Below are positions 1 to 5,614 of a DNA stretch of 58,897 bases, in pieces (within the stretch, counting starts at the first letter, position 1; every line of letters begins with the position of its first letter). The DNA is from Bacteroidia bacterium (GTDB lineage: Bacteria; Bacteroidota; Bacteroidia; M30B66): positions 1 to 58,897 of the forward strand of contig JAIBAI010000012.1 of NCBI GenBank assembly GCA_019695235.1. The letters run 5' to 3'. The translations under genes were made by a program, and so were the position numbers. Below the pieces are notes generated by a model. It searched no databases, had not been told where the DNA came from, and worked only from the letters and a program-made list of their open reading frames with translations.

Positions 1-372
1 AGCGCTGAAAACCTCTGGTTTTCAGCCGAAAGAATGGATACCTTAAAAAATAAACACAACATCCATAAAGCAAATCACCCCGATAGCTATCGGGGTTGTT
101 GTAAATATTCGCCCCGATAGCTATCGGGGTTCCAAGGAAAGACCTGAGCGCTGAAAACCTCTGGTTTTCAGCCGAAAGAATGGATACCTTAAAAAATAAA
201 CACAACATCCATAAAGCAAATCACCCCGATAGCTATCGGGGTTGTTGTAAATATTCGCCCCGATAGCTATCGGAATTTCAAGGAAAGACCTGATCGCTGA
301 AAACCTCTGGTTTTCAGCCGAAAGAATGGATACCTTAAAAAAAAACACAACATCCATAAAGCAAATCACAAC
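1..372. repeat. 146-bp tandem repeat, 2.5 copies, with palindromes and tracrRNA-like cores
   Basis: Two nearly identical 146-bp units (1-146, 147-292) are followed by a partial third (293-372). Each unit holds a 10-bp-arm hairpin (4-26 in unit 1, arms GCTGAAAACC/GGTTTTCAGC), then ATGGAT/ATCCAT arms (34-39, 61-66). The full units also carry two copies of the palindrome CCCCGATAGCTATCGGGG (78-95, 112-129); the second copy in unit 2 is mutated at its end. Each unit contains AAAGCAAATCAC (67-78, 213-224, 358-369), which is part of the tracrRNA anti-repeat. The repeat continues to base 1, so its left limit is unknown. It is not a canonical CRISPR array: the unit is too long and there are no unique spacers. 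Confidence 0.9.
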
Positions 373-374
373 GA

Positions 375-731
375 TTAATGCCGCTGTGGTTCCGATTCAG
401 ATGCTTTACCAGATTTTTTTCTTGTATTACTCTTTTTCTCAAATTCCGGTAAAAATCTAATTGACTTACGTATTGAGTCAGCCTGGGCTTTAGTGACCCA
501 CTCATCACGATTATTCGGATGCCTGGTCATAAAATGGGTATCCCGTGCAGTTATACCCCTTCCATTTACCAAATCCCAAAAAATCCAATTGGGTTTTTCT
601 GGTGGGGGCCTTTTAACCGGTTTCATGATGAAAAAAGCATAAATCAATAAACCTATTGTGAACAAGGTTCCAATTCTACTTCTTAAAAATTGCCGCATCT
701 TCAGTCGGTTTAAGCGTTGATGGTTAGGCAT
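375..731 (-). CDS. small membrane protein, unknown function
   Basis: I do not recognise this 118-residue protein. A basic N-terminus is followed by one hydrophobic segment at about residues 22-37 (TLFTIGLLIYAFF) and a proline-rich stretch (KRPPPEKP). The soluble part contains WDLVNGRG and DTHFMTRHPNN, and the C-terminal tail is highly charged. This suggests a single-pass protein with its C-terminal part on one side of the membrane. ATG at 698 (MRQFL) is an alternative start that would remove 11 residues. The stop codon lies directly beside the tandem repeat, and the last codons overlap a stretch resembling the tracrRNA nexus, so the C-terminus may have been reshaped by that sequence. It is the nearest gene downstream of cas9, 328 bp away and on the same strand. 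No Cas family motif is visible. Confidence 0.6.
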   Translation of the reverse strand: MPNHQRLNRLKMRQFLRSRIGTLFTIGLLIYAFFIMKPVKRPPPEKPNWIFWDLVNGRGITARDTHFMTRHPNNRDEWVTKAQADSIRKSIRFLPEFEKKSNTRKKSGKASESEPQRH

Positions 732-1059
732 ACATTTTATGTGAATTTTTATAATTGCCTTGTCCTTTCATCATTTACCAATCAATTCAAAAAAAACAGA
801 GCTGCCAGTTGCGTACCTTGCTTGAAGCCAATGAAAAGCTACTGAAAATGGTTCGGCACCTGGCAATTGCTTCAGGACCCGGATTAATATGCTGACTGTA
901 TTCTTCTTTAAAGAAACCATAATACTTCTGCACCCGAAAAAATATGTCATTTCAACTGGCGTGGTTGTAGAAATGATAAAAGGTTTTGAACCAGAGCATT
1001 CTTATCTTATATTAAAAGCATCAAAAGCCTAGCATTTTTGATGTTTAAGTTTCAACTTA
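732..1059. other. gap between cas9 and the small membrane gene, possible gene remnants
   Basis: There is no convincing gene in this stretch. Two plus-strand open stretches without a good start look like decayed coding DNA. One at about 801-893 reads as QLRTLLEANEKLLKMV and onward. The other at about 921-1032 reads as KKYVISTGVVVEMIKGFEP and ends in TAG at 1030-1032. I could not assign either to a family. A weak hairpin at 1019-1043 lies just after the cas9 stop. Confidence 0.4.
1019..1043 (-). terminator. weak hairpin downstream of cas9
   Basis: The arms CATCAAAA and TTTTGATG form an 8-bp A/T-rich stem. On the minus strand it is followed by a short GCTTTTAATAT stretch, 16 bp past the cas9 stop. 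The T-run is poor, so this is only a candidate terminator. Confidence 0.35.
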
Positions 1060-4000
1060 TTAATATTCCCCCACCCCAATAATATCTCCCAAATGATTGG
1101 TGCGGAGTTTTATGATATTGCGCAAAGGTTCTAAACTTTTGATTTGTTGGTAAGTAAAACCTTGTAATTCTTTTTTATCACCAACTGTTGATTCTAAATG
1201 ATGTCTCAATTTAAAATCTCGGACTGTATTATTACCATATTTAACAACAGAAATTGTTTGCACTCTAAACAAATTCGGGCTAATCTTCTTTTTGTTTTTA
1301 GGGTCTAATAAATCAATTTCAGCTGGGTTAAAGCCTGTTTTTTCATTGGGAAAAACAAATAATTCATTTTGTTTCATGGTAAATAAAAACTGCCAACCTT
1401 CGCTCTGCTTGTAGGCTTTATCAATAATAGGTAAACCCATGTTAACCCTTGCAACAGCCTCGTATAAAGAAACAACATTTTCCTGTAAGTTGCCTTTTTC
1501 ATCTCGGTACACCGCCACATGGTGGTTATTGCCGGTTTGCACAAAATCTACAGCAATTTTATTTCCGTTTGCATTTAAAATTGGTTTACCAAAATGGTCT
1601 TTTTTGTGGTGCAATGCTTCGGCATTGTTTACGCCTCTTATGGTAACCCGCTTAATGGCAATTCCTTTTTCTTTGTTGAGCCAAATAGGGTTTTTATCTA
1701 AATCAGAGAAGGCTTTTTTTGCATCACCGCCAAAGGCCTTCAGTCGAATTTCTAACGCTGTTCTTACTGCCTTATCTATTACTTTGTCAATTTTTAAATC
1801 TGGCGTTACATCTTTTCTTATTGAAAAATCTTCTACCAACCAAACCAGTTTAACCTTTTCAGGTAATACTACTGTTTTTTCTACATTTAAATAAATTGGA
1901 TTTTTCTCCAAGGTATTTTTTCCTGTAAATGCTTTTTTAGGGTCGTTACCGTTTTCTTCTAGGCGTTGCAATAAAAGCTTTTTGTAAAAAGGATTACCAA
2001 CTTTTTCAATGGTTTCTTTATCAAATTTACCACCTATTTTTTCTTCCTTTTGCTCGTAATACTGGTATCTGCCGTACACCGTTTCTTTGTGTAATTGTCC
2101 ACGAGGAGTTAAAGCTTCTTGTATTTTATTGGAGCCACTAACTTTATTCTTGTTTTTAGTAACTACTTTGTTTTTTGCCTTGTGCGATACAATTACATTT
2201 TCAAGGTGTTCTTTAGCTACTTGTCGGAAATGAGGAATAGGTTCTTTGAATACACGTTTTTTATTTCCATTCTCATCAATTTTGATTATTGTTTCTTTTT
2301 CTTCAATACCCACAACATCCCGAGTTGAAAGTTTTAACTTAGATGTATCCATACTGGTTCTGCCTTTTGAATTGCTGATGGTATCATCAGCGTTTACATT
2401 TCTACGGGCATTTAAGTTATTAAGATATTGGATAAAACTTCTTTTGGTAAAAGCAATGGTCAAAGCGTCCATCGCATGGTGACGGTGGTCGTTTCGTTTG
2501 GTCCAATCTTTAATCACCTCAACTTTTTGCCCATACTTTCGTTCTTCCATTTCTGTCAAGCCCAAAGCACGGTATTTTGGCAAATTGAGTTCTTTCATGA
2601 TGTTTACCAAATCCCAATCTTCACGCAATCTATCTGTTACTTGCCCAGATGTAGAAACTACCGAACGGGTAATTTCAAACAACATTTCTTTTGCCTTTTT
2701 TGCAATATACTGGCTATCTCGCAAATCCCGTTCAATAAAGCCTTCACCAATTTCAGAGGAACGCTTTAGTAGTTTTTGATATTTGGCTTTGGAGATACCG
2801 TTTTCAGGATTGTTTTTATTCCACAACTTATTAAGTGCTTCAATTCTATCTTGATAGGCAGTTAATCCGGCTTCGCCGAATTTACTTTCAATGTATTCAA
2901 AAGCAGTTTGATTTCCTTTTTCTAAATTATCTTTTCTGTAAACAACTGTTTTGTTAGAGAAGCTGTCATCAAATAAACGAGATTGAGGCAGGATATGCTC
3001 AATATCAATTTGCTTACTAAAAAGGATTTCTTTTGGAATATAGGTATCGGTATATAAATCTTTGTAGCTGTTGTTCCTAAGCTCTTCATAGAGTATATAG
3101 CGAACAATGTCATTTCGAGTGGGATTTGCAACGCCAAATTCAGCTTGCAATAACTTAACTATTTTTTCATGAGCTATTTTGGCAGCATTGATATTGGTAG
3201 TCATTTCAGCTCTCTCAGCTGCATTTTTCTTCAACTCACGAGCCAACTCAATTCGGATTTCATCAAATTGAAAATTCCTAGACTTTCCTTCCCTTTCTAG
3301 CGTACCATTTTCCTTGTCAATCAGCGCATTTACTACATTTACCATTTGGTTGAGGATTTTCTCAACCACCGGATTTCGAAGACTATTTTTCCTGAGTAAA
3401 TCTAATTTTGGTTTTAACGTTCGATTTTCCAACTCATCCTTGGTCAATGAATGTTTAGAGTGACGGTATCCGGCCAATTCACAAGCCTCACTGTATTTAT
3501 TTTCTTTGATATACGGATAAATTCTACGCATGGCTTTGGTGGAAAGACTACCGTAATCATCCTGAAAAACCATATTGACCAATATCTTTGCATGGTCAGG
3601 TTTGAAACCAAATTTTGAACACAGTTGCTTTTTCAAGCCTATGTTGTCATTGCCGTAAAGCACAACATCTTCCTGGGAGTATTTTTTGGTATCGTCTTCT
3701 GCTGAATAGAGTATATGCCAAAGCTGATAGGAAGCTTGATTTTCAAAATCTTTACCATCTAATTCTGCATTAAATTCTAAAATCTCGGTATTGATTTTTA
3801 GCACTTCAAAAATGGCTTTCACCATAGCTTTGATTTCAGAAGCAGGAGTTTTTAGTTCGTTGATATTGATTTCGTCTTTGTCTGAAAGTTTTAATAAATC
3901 TTCGTTATAACCTTCGATTTCTAAAATTTTTAAGTACGCATTATACAAGGCTTGATTGGTGCGATTGCCTTCTAATTGGGTGTAGTTCATTTCCCAATCC

Positions 4001-5475
4001 TTGGGTTTGTAACCTAAGATTTCGATAATTTGATTGGCTTTTAGATTTCCTTTGATATTGAGTTCTTCAAAAACTTGATTCTTTGCTGATAAATCTAATT
4101 CGAAAATTTCTTGCTCAGCTTGAATGTCAGTGCTATCACTTTTTTTGATAGATCGCTTTTTGCTGCCAGCTTTTTTAATTAAAACATTGTGCAAATTTTG
4201 CCAAATTTTAAACTCCTGAAACAATGGAGAAGACTTGGGTGCCACACGCATTCCAATCGTTTTCAACTTACCGTCAATTTCTATTTCTTTGCTTTCAAAT
4301 TCGCAAAAACTAATCAAGCCTTTTTGAGATTTGAGTTTGCGTTGATAGAAAATAACAATATCCCGAATTTCTTCTTTGAGTTTATCAGTAAGTTGGGAAT
4401 GGAATTTTGCTTGTGTAGTCCATATTTTTTCAAACTCATCTAAATAATCTTGACGATAAAATACTTGATTTTTAAGAGCTGTGTGTCTGTTTTTCAATAA
4501 CTGATGGTATTGGTTTTGCCCAACCGTTTCTTGATTAAAATACAATTCTTTACTTCTATCCGAAATTGCCCCTAAATATCCACTTGAATTATTGAGATTA
4601 TTATTGATTTCAGTTAGTACATAAGCCATTTGTTCTTTTTCTAATTGCTTACTCACTGCTTCGCTTCGCCATTTGTAGGCTTGCAATTTCTTTTGGTCAC
4701 GAGTATGTAGTTTTATCGTTTGTTCATTTTTTAAATCTTTGTCAATGTCCTTAATATCGGCAGTATTAAATTTGTATTTAGTCCAAAACAAGGCTGATGT
4801 AGCCTTGAGACCTTTTCCCTGTAGATCCTTGTAAAACTCATCAGTCAGTATTTCAGGGTAGTATTGTTTTTGAAAGTTCCATACTTTATCAAATTCAGTT
4901 TGTAAATCGGAACGATAAAAATCTGGAATTACTTTCTTACTATTTTTAAAGTTTTGAAAAACATATTGTCCTGGCGTAAGATTTTCTTCATATAGTTTTT
5001 TTGCGATGCCCATTCCGTCAATAGCTTGTCCTTCTTCACTGTTCTTTGCTTTACGGCTGCTTTTGTAGCCACGCTTTTTATTGATAGTCAAAAGCACTCG
5101 AGCAAATTCATTGAGTTCAATTCTTTCTGTAGCAGCTTTTGCTCTCAATGCCCAAGTTTGAAAAGTAGTTTGCTTACCATCTTCACATAATTTGGCAGCC
5201 GCATTAATAATATTTGCTTTAGTTAGTACCTCTAATAAATTTTCTCGTCTAAGTTGATAACGATCTAAATTTCTTCTTGCGCTGCGTTTAAGGGTTCTGT
5301 CTGCATTGGTTGTAATTGATTTACCTTTCTCAAAGTTACTTTGTTCGTCAACTGTTAATGGATTAACACGAACACCAATCTGCTTTATTTCTGACTCGTT
5401 TTGAGTTTCACCTTCTGTTACATAAGCCCATCCAATAGAGGTGGTTCCCAAATCTAAACCTAAAATCTTTTTCAT
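1060..5475 (-). CDS. cas9: CRISPR-associated endonuclease Cas9, type II-C
   Basis: This is an RNA-guided DNA endonuclease of 1471 residues, in the usual size range of Bacteroidota II-C Cas9. RuvC-I is LGLDLGTTSIGWA with D8. An arginine-rich bridge helix (RSARRNLDRYQLRREN) follows. RuvC-II is IRIELAREL with E743, HNH is IDIEHILPQSRLFDDS with H827, and RuvC-III is RHHAMDAL with H1000 and D1003. All catalytic residues are present, so the enzyme looks active. ATG at 5475 is chosen because family members begin MKKILGLDLGT. A longer GTG-initiated frame reaches 5625, but it runs antisense through the tracrRNA and is unlikely to be translated. The gene is more A/T-rich than the housekeeping genes to its right, suggesting acquisition. 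No cas1, cas2 or cas4 is nearby, so adaptation genes and array are either left of the window or absent. Confidence 0.97.
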   Translation of the reverse strand: MKKILGLDLGTTSIGWAYVTEGETQNESEIKQIGVRVNPLTVDEQSNFEKGKSITTNADRTLKRSARRNLDRYQLRRENLLEVLTKANIINAAAKLCEDGKQTTFQTWALRAKAATERIELNEFARVLLTINKKRGYKSSRKAKNSEEGQAIDGMGIAKKLYEENLTPGQYVFQNFKNSKKVIPDFYRSDLQTEFDKVWNFQKQYYPEILTDEFYKDLQGKGLKATSALFWTKYKFNTADIKDIDKDLKNEQTIKLHTRDQKKLQAYKWRSEAVSKQLEKEQMAYVLTEINNNLNNSSGYLGAISDRSKELYFNQETVGQNQYHQLLKNRHTALKNQVFYRQDYLDEFEKIWTTQAKFHSQLTDKLKEEIRDIVIFYQRKLKSQKGLISFCEFESKEIEIDGKLKTIGMRVAPKSSPLFQEFKIWQNLHNVLIKKAGSKKRSIKKSDSTDIQAEQEIFELDLSAKNQVFEELNIKGNLKANQIIEILGYKPKDWEMNYTQLEGNRTNQALYNAYLKILEIEGYNEDLLKLSDKDEININELKTPASEIKAMVKAIFEVLKINTEILEFNAELDGKDFENQASYQLWHILYSAEDDTKKYSQEDVVLYGNDNIGLKKQLCSKFGFKPDHAKILVNMVFQDDYGSLSTKAMRRIYPYIKENKYSEACELAGYRHSKHSLTKDELENRTLKPKLDLLRKNSLRNPVVEKILNQMVNVVNALIDKENGTLEREGKSRNFQFDEIRIELARELKKNAAERAEMTTNINAAKIAHEKIVKLLQAEFGVANPTRNDIVRYILYEELRNNSYKDLYTDTYIPKEILFSKQIDIEHILPQSRLFDDSFSNKTVVYRKDNLEKGNQTAFEYIESKFGEAGLTAYQDRIEALNKLWNKNNPENGISKAKYQKLLKRSSEIGEGFIERDLRDSQYIAKKAKEMLFEITRSVVSTSGQVTDRLREDWDLVNIMKELNLPKYRALGLTEMEERKYGQKVEVIKDWTKRNDHRHHAMDALTIAFTKRSFIQYLNNLNARRNVNADDTISNSKGRTSMDTSKLKLSTRDVVGIEEKETIIKIDENGNKKRVFKEPIPHFRQVAKEHLENVIVSHKAKNKVVTKNKNKVSGSNKIQEALTPRGQLHKETVYGRYQYYEQKEEKIGGKFDKETIEKVGNPFYKKLLLQRLEENGNDPKKAFTGKNTLEKNPIYLNVEKTVVLPEKVKLVWLVEDFSIRKDVTPDLKIDKVIDKAVRTALEIRLKAFGGDAKKAFSDLDKNPIWLNKEKGIAIKRVTIRGVNNAEALHHKKDHFGKPILNANGNKIAVDFVQTGNNHHVAVYRDEKGNLQENVVSLYEAVARVNMGLPIIDKAYKQSEGWQFLFTMKQNELFVFPNEKTGFNPAEIDLLDPKNKKKISPNLFRVQTISVVKYGNNTVRDFKLRHHLESTVGDKKELQGFTYQQIKSLEPLRNIIKLRTNHLGDIIGVGEY

Positions 5476-5530: not shown

Positions 5531-5614
5531 TACTGAAAGCAAATCACAATAAGGATTATTCCGTTGTGAAAACATTTGGATTGCTCCTTGTCCAGAATCA
5601 GGGAGCTTTTTTTT
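5531..5614 (+). ncRNA. tracrRNA for the adjacent type II-C Cas9
   Basis: This predicted RNA of about 84 nt is transcribed divergently from cas9. It starts with an anti-repeat, TACTGAAAGCAAATCACAA (5531-5549), which predicts that the matching CRISPR repeat begins close to TTGTGATTTGCTTTCAGTA. The nexus-like part AAGGATTATTCCGTTGTG (5551-5568) has the AAGG...CCGTT layout of known type II tracrRNAs. It continues AAAACATTTGG and ends in an intrinsic terminator at 5583-5614. A consensus -7 element lies directly upstream. The RNA would pair with pre-crRNA to guide RNase III processing and Cas9 loading. Evidence is sequence pattern only; no expression data are available here. Confidence 0.88.
5583..5614 (+). 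terminator. intrinsic terminator of the tracrRNA
   Basis: The stem GCTCCTTG/CAGGGAGC has 8 bp with one G-U pair and an 8-nt loop. It is followed by eight T residues (5607-5614). This is the 3' hairpin of the tracrRNA. Confidence 0.85.

Follow-up and report, generated by a model that had tools for sequence, protein, structure and literature searches.

Giant CRISPR repeats at a Bacteroidota type II-C locus, probably relics of the trailer end of the array enlarged by a dispersed hairpin element

The stretch of DNA analysed here, hereafter the window (58,897 nt), is contig C111 of a 116-contig draft genome (G000), read from base 1, and this first base falls inside a repeat unit of unusual length. 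Beside the contig end lie a tandem repeat (1-390), a type II-C cas9 and its tracrRNA, and the features concerned are as follows.

1..81, minus strand: third giant CRISPR repeat, incomplete because the contig ends here; query positions 4-81 align at 96% identity
1..66, minus strand: the copy of element E that belongs to the third repeat, cut short where the contig ends
77..96: palindrome CCCCGATAGCTATCGG(A/G) in place of a spacer, between repeat D and the third repeat
95..227, minus strand: giant CRISPR repeat D; 95% identical to the giant repeat of contig C39; first bases GTTG replaced by palindrome-derived GGGG
112..130: palindrome CCCCGATAGCTATCGG(A/G), second insert in repeat D
141..212, minus strand: element E in repeat D
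223..242: palindrome CCCCGATAGCTATCGG(A/G) in place of a spacer, between repeats C and D
241..372, minus strand: giant CRISPR repeat C, 132 nt, starting with GTTGTGATTTGCTTT at 372 and ending with ACAACAAC at about 241; probably trailer-most; aligns along its length at 93% identity with the giant repeat that flanks a 30-nt spacer on C39
258..274: palindrome CCCCGATAGCTATCGG(A/G), second insert in repeat C; four copies in the window, all in the tandem, with 0 expected
287..357, minus strand: element E in repeat C, made up of a stem (ATGGAT/ATCCAT) with a T-rich loop followed by the hairpin GCTGAAAACC/GGTTTTCAGC; 66.5 bits with covariance model R1 and E 7.9e-5 with R2
375..731, minus strand: ORF of 118 aa that stops three bases short of the first repeat; without match in Pfam or among phages
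856..999, minus strand: decayed remnant of a REP-associated tyrosine transposase (RAYT) with an in-frame stop, downstream of cas9; similar to the RAYT of G221 by tblastn (52% over 48 aa, E 6e-10), with a blastn match of 71% over 155 nt (E 5e-19)
1060..5475, minus strand: type II-C cas9, 1471 aa from the ATG at 5475; TIGR01865, RuvC_III, HNH_4
5531..5614, plus strand: tracrRNA; anti-repeat ACTGAAAGCAAATCACAA without insert, core, and terminator GGGAGCTTTTTTTT; core the same as in tracrRNAs of related loci; duplex of at least 18 bp with the normal repeat

The initial annotation had drawn attention to a 12-mer, AAAGCAAATCAC, in all three units of the tandem, and this is correct (67-78, 213-224 and 358-369), as is the 14-mer AAAGCAAATCACAA, which is common to 358-371 and tracrRNA positions 5536-5549 and occurs nowhere else in the window. 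The latter match is above chance: 2000 dinucleotide-shuffled versions of 1-390 shared at most 13 nt with the tracrRNA region (mean of the longest match 7.6 nt), and none reached 14. Both words are the start of the type II-C CRISPR repeat on the minus strand, and the minus-strand 15-mer GTTGTGATTTGCTTT is the first third of this repeat. The decayed array that had been listed among the possibilities is indeed present, since 1-372 on the minus strand consists of 2.5 giant copies, about 132 nt each, of a 47-nt CRISPR repeat, with both repeat ends recognisable. Each giant is interrupted directly after GTTGTGATTTGCTTT by a hairpin element of about 71 nt, here called E, and again by an 18-bp palindrome, and the giants form a head-to-tail tandem of 146 bp. 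Unique spacers of about 30 nt, which are present at giants of contig C39 and of genomes G098, G166 and G221, are absent between the window repeats, and the palindrome is found instead. Because it replaces the spacers there, we call this part a relic of an array rather than a working array.

Other proposals fared less well. The stretch GATTAATGCCGCTGTG (373-388), which had been likened to the tracrRNA nexus, is unconvincing, because its alignment to the nexus needs one gap and two mismatches; an equal score was reached in 1.9% of local shuffles and by 0.37% of 21-mers sampled through the window. The stretch lies in the stop codon (TAA) and C-terminal codons of the minus-strand ORF 375-731, and no tracrRNA-type terminator follows. 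A tracrRNA duplicate, which would be without credible nexus and without terminator, was given up accordingly. The view that the minus strand holds crRNA-repeat-like halves able to pair with the tracrRNA was borne out by folding, in that the 15-nt pairing segment is kept: in a 20-nt test, the giant is predicted to pair over 15 bp (-20.9 kcal/mol) versus at least 18 bp (-28.3 kcal/mol) for the normal repeat. Whole-repeat duplexfold of giants with the tracrRNA was uninformative, as long chance pairing dominated, and the 20-nt test was used for this reason.

This pairing and the non-random match to the tracrRNA are what could speak for a short crRNA-like or tracr-L/scaRNA-like RNA from 1-390 with which Cas9 represses a chromosomal gene, perhaps its own. 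We regard such an RNA as extremely improbable. The guide position is occupied either by the tail of the ORF (putative guide 402-373, minus strand), which at a seed length of 10-12 matches only itself in the window, or, between repeats, by the palindrome, whose copies in the window are limited to 1-390; no 10-12-nt seed match was found at cas9 or the tracrRNA, nor one for a tracr-L/scaRNA-like regulator elsewhere in the 58.9-kb window. The resemblance to the nexus is weak and falls in coding sequence, no terminator follows, and the insert displaces the TTG promoter element encoded in the repeat.

Contig C39 of the same genome matches 1-390 and carries an array of 47-nt repeats (GTTGTGATTTGCTTTCAGTTCCTTGAAATACCGATATTTGCCACAAC) with 30-nt spacers. 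Its order is the normal array, a leader-like stretch, two 132-nt repeats around a 30-nt spacer, a second leader-like copy, cas2 and cas1. The 132-nt repeat has the same 15-nt start as the 47-nt repeat and nearly the same 3' part, and these two ends are separated by about 69-72 nt containing two hairpins; the palindrome CCCCGATAGCTATCGGGG comes further along. Assignment to type II-C is based on repeat ends as in the genome's array, pairing of the 5' part with the tracrRNA anti-repeat, and the presence of cas9, cas1 and cas2 in the genome. The two leader-like copies (L002, 299-438 and 782-921) are 91% identical, one after the normal array and the other after the giants, as in a duplicated array with leader. 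In this class, the palindrome CCCCGATAGCTATCGGGG forms a dispersed element of its own, found at 77-274 of the window, at C24:41144-41307 and C108:14176 of the same genome, and in several relatives; its three copies on C24 are spaced at 74 bp. Judging from repeat orientation and from other genomes, C111 and C39 would be joined at these ends across an assembly gap, and the window tandem would be the trailer (oldest) end of this genome's type II-C array.

The head-to-tail 146-bp units without 30-nt spacers in the window would also be expected of an ordinary minisatellite that happens to include a fragment of a CRISPR repeat. We consider this very improbable, because it is contradicted by C39, where two repeats made of the same unit enclose a 30-nt spacer next to cas2 and a leader-like stretch, and because both repeat ends are kept.

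E-like inserts were found at the same base of the repeat in the arrays of five other genomes (G098, G396, G221, G166 and G037) and probably of a sixth (G441), in loci that span several related bacterial families; giant lengths are 97-132 nt, and E measures about 48-71 nt across the genomes. Genome G098, which was reached by DNA search of relatives, has 46-nt repeats, of which about 30 are normal; among the five repeats nearest to cas9, three are giant: 55-58 nt are inserted behind the same 15 nt, and the spacers around them have kept their normal length. The first repeat is giant in G396, the first two in G221, and the first and fifth in G166, while in G037 giants in a 195-bp tandem precede the normal array as in the window genome. 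G441 has two giants at a contig end, where the normal repeat was not seen, and G323 has a solitary giant-repeat-like sequence. In G441 (L129, 5066-5290 and 20-224), the giants read GTTGTGAATTGC and the tracrRNA GCAATTCACAA, repeat and anti-repeat having changed together. Three spacers adjacent to giants gave no viral match when searched as exact 21-23-mers against IMG/VR.

These genomes were collected by two kinds of searches. A pattern scan of one genome per species for 84,980 GTDB species gave 13 records, four of which were genuine: G098, G396 and tracr-like sequences in G062 and G395, the G395 record being the same contig as G443. The other nine were rejected as chance by inspection, and so were both matches of the giant pattern in viral contigs. 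Covariance model R1, which was built from eight sequences, found G221, G166, G441, G037, G323 and tracr-like sequences in G433 and G444; weak matches of the covariance model, e.g. in G145, G170 and G245, were judged by eye to be chance.

The aforementioned tracrRNA-like sequences carry the E-like insert at the same base, within the anti-repeat, in four genomes (G062, G443, G444 and G433; L048 8268-8165, minus strand; L071 177-279; L133 4882-4807, minus strand; L122 1501-1575). A search for Cas9 in these four and in G323 found none, three of the five genomes being at least 94% complete, and for this reason their tracr-like and giant-like sequences look like orphans. The sequence of G062 (L048) keeps a full core and terminator.

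Position within the array was examined by taking the trailer direction from a report on transcription in Flavobacterium type II-C arrays, where transcription runs toward the variable end from a TTG promoter in the repeat, about 35 bp before the spacer (PMC10309648). Giants cluster at the trailer end in five arrays (p=2.5e-5, with array lengths partly cut by contig ends). Counted from the spacer, the TTG of five of six normal repeats is at -38/-39, and that of giants is at -89 or beyond; two giants (that of G000 and that of G166) have another TTG near -40/-47.

An important question is whether E was inserted into the repeat or belonged to it from the beginning. In the latter case, early Bacteroidota type II-C repeats would have been about 100 nt long, the short form would have arisen by deletion, and the giants would have been left at array ends and as tracrRNA fossils. 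The giants at the oldest array end, the E-like insert at the same base in the tracr-like sequences of G062, G443, G444 and G433, and the fact that normal repeats can come after giants within one array would all fit such an origin. We nevertheless think it quite unlikely. The flanks of the giants match the normal repeats of their own lineage (identical in G221, G166 and G098, and nearly so in G396), while inserts vary from lineage to lineage; other genomes have dispersed E copies outside CRISPR; and array turnover would probably be too fast for such fossils to persist across families. In addition, the insert of G441 follows the host family and not the Cas9 clade, being 88-89% identical to that of G098 (host family) versus 73% to that of G166 (nearest Cas9), by a simple aligner that inflates all of these values. 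Cas9 identities among the loci are 24-34%, except for G000-G221 (85%), G098-G396 (84%) and G441-G166 (59%).

The first stem of E covaries, with 98% of cells paired and three pairs changed on both sides; its covariation score was reached in none of 500 shuffles, and slid versions fail. Because MAFFT misaligned the stems when all 19 inserts were given, a smaller set was used. Two insert versions in G098 differ while their flanks are identical, and the second version favours two or more insertions over one founder. Identical inserts within one array, as in G221, in a pair of G098 and in G166, favour copying.

Model R2, which describes the insert alone, matches 39 of 395 genomes, CRISPR copies included, with up to eight scored copies per genome. 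Copies lie at unrelated places with a shared boundary and structure, as is characteristic of a dispersed element: dispersed copies have a clean left edge after TT, and the f3 consensus is a stem, a T-rich loop, the complementary stem and GAGAACGCTTCGCTTAGTT. Two E copies stand directly head to tail in G226 (L195, L196). In the window genome itself, E occurs only in CRISPR repeats and a donor is missing. Rfam searches of eight loci gave no family for E.

Dispersed copies in f3 genomes (G011, G155, G125 and G211; L165-L188) lie within 60 nt upstream of a start codon in 12 of 18 cases, in one orientation, versus 13% of random points; most are 4-45 nt upstream, like a mobile 5' leader. From this placement, and from the position of E directly 5' of the anti-repeat core in the tracr-like sequences, it could be argued that E is not a parasite but acts in cis as a functional 5' leader or promoter, which in CRISPR repeats would drive RNA toward the tracrRNA side and away from the crRNA. 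We consider this unlikely, because no Bacteroidota promoter motif was recognised in E by eye, because a preference for A-runs near start codons would look the same, and in view of the aforementioned Rfam result.

As a candidate mover, a RAYT gene was found as an open frame between cas9 and cas1 in G221 (L214:237-860, minus strand). It matches NCBIfam NF047646 (E 2e-15) and Pfam Y1_Tnp (E 0.0055), both below the cut-off, and TnpA-REP of PDB 4er8 (E 3e-4); the RAYT remnant of the window (856-999) sits between cas9 and the giants. R2 gave no match next to the RAYT of G221, and the f3 copies examined have no RAYT nearby; for the latter reason RAYT was not accepted as a proven mover. It is a lead only; no transposition event was seen, and how E moves is something that we infer.

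Taking these results together, we assign a probability of roughly 0.8, as a joint figure, to the reading that 1-372 represents relic CRISPR repeats of the trailer end of this genome's type II-C array, enlarged by a dispersed hairpin element, and not a regulator. E may have entered a single CRISPR repeat between two T-runs, and repeat duplication, by spacer acquisition or recombination, may then have copied the giant form a few times. Repeats added later would have shed E precisely, a loss for which the hairpin and the flanking TT/TTT would favour slippage, and for this reason giants would remain at the trailer end. The window repeats have also lost their normal spacers, with the palindrome instead, and have multiplied as the 146-bp tandem. 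With 15 bp of tracrRNA pairing left to a giant, a crRNA that ends in one could still be loaded into Cas9. For spacers that follow a giant, transcription from a promoter of their own is improbable, because the TTG element of the repeat (about 38 bp before the spacer) has been moved away by the insert.

A further proposal, which we put forward as possible but rather doubtful, is that E is a mobile hairpin element which genuinely prefers the segment of type II-C repeats that pairs with the tracrRNA, together with the matching tracrRNA anti-repeat. Arrays would tolerate it because its place is just beyond the 15-bp core of the pairing, and would shed it when repeats are copied in spacer acquisition. 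If transcription toward AAAGCAAATCACAAC is also initiated by E, a giant would as it stands be a precursor of a tracrRNA, and tracrRNAs could arise from repeats by this route.

The main interest of the locus is the giant repeat interrupted by a dispersed element, which the initial annotation overlooked. CRISPR repeats are usually described as 24-48 nt long (PMC3733652); tools that expect this range may therefore overlook repeats of 97-132 nt, with possible errors in array ends and in the number of spacers. No comparable insertion inside CRISPR repeats was found in the open-access literature, which is weak evidence of absence, and the giant repeat is apparently an undescribed kind of CRISPR repeat. 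That several diverged type II-C systems carry the same kind of element at the same base suggests a weak spot of the repeat where an insert is tolerated, which lies outside the 15 bp of pairing with the tracrRNA and between the two halves of the promoter. Cas9 use of giant-repeat crRNAs, Cas1-Cas2 copying of a 132-bp repeat and precise loss of the insert have become testable, and giant-repeat-like sequences fused to tracr-like cores bear on the origin of tracrRNAs from repeats.

Several known systems can be compared. Like tracr-L of Streptococcus pyogenes and scaRNA of Francisella, the window stretch has repeat- or tracr-like segments near cas9, but it differs from them in that no partial guide match to a promoter was found in the window and there is neither nexus nor terminator. 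MITEs are small, non-coding and dispersed, as E is, whereas no clear terminal inverted repeats were seen in E, and a TT/TTT direct repeat stands at its edges in several giants only. In REP/RAYT systems, a published survey describes atypical hairpins on either side of the Bacteroidetes RAYTs of subclass 2.6, and further copies of these hairpins in the rest of the genome (PMC6006769). E likewise consists of small dispersed extragenic hairpins; a RAYT relic lies beside the window giants and a RAYT gene between cas9 and cas1 in G221. E differs in its large loop, in the lack of a GTAG foot and in that no RAYT was found near dispersed copies; a GT[AG]G foot at a palindrome is absent from the E copies listed, and subclass 2.6 hairpins are also without it (PMC6006769). 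The papers found do not describe REPs inside CRISPR repeats. With Bacteroidota type II-C systems, e.g. of Flavobacterium (PMC10309648), the locus has in common cas9, cas1, cas2, a tracrRNA, a repeat of 46-47 nt, spacers of about 30 nt and the TTG about 35 bp before the spacer, but here some repeats reach 97-132 nt by an insert at one fixed base, and the window spacers are replaced by a palindrome. IS256 and IS982 in the type II-C loci of F. psychrophilum (PMC10309648) are likewise mobile DNA that splits a type II-C array or enters the locus; there a full IS enters once, whereas here a short hairpin lies inside the repeat and has been multiplied with it.
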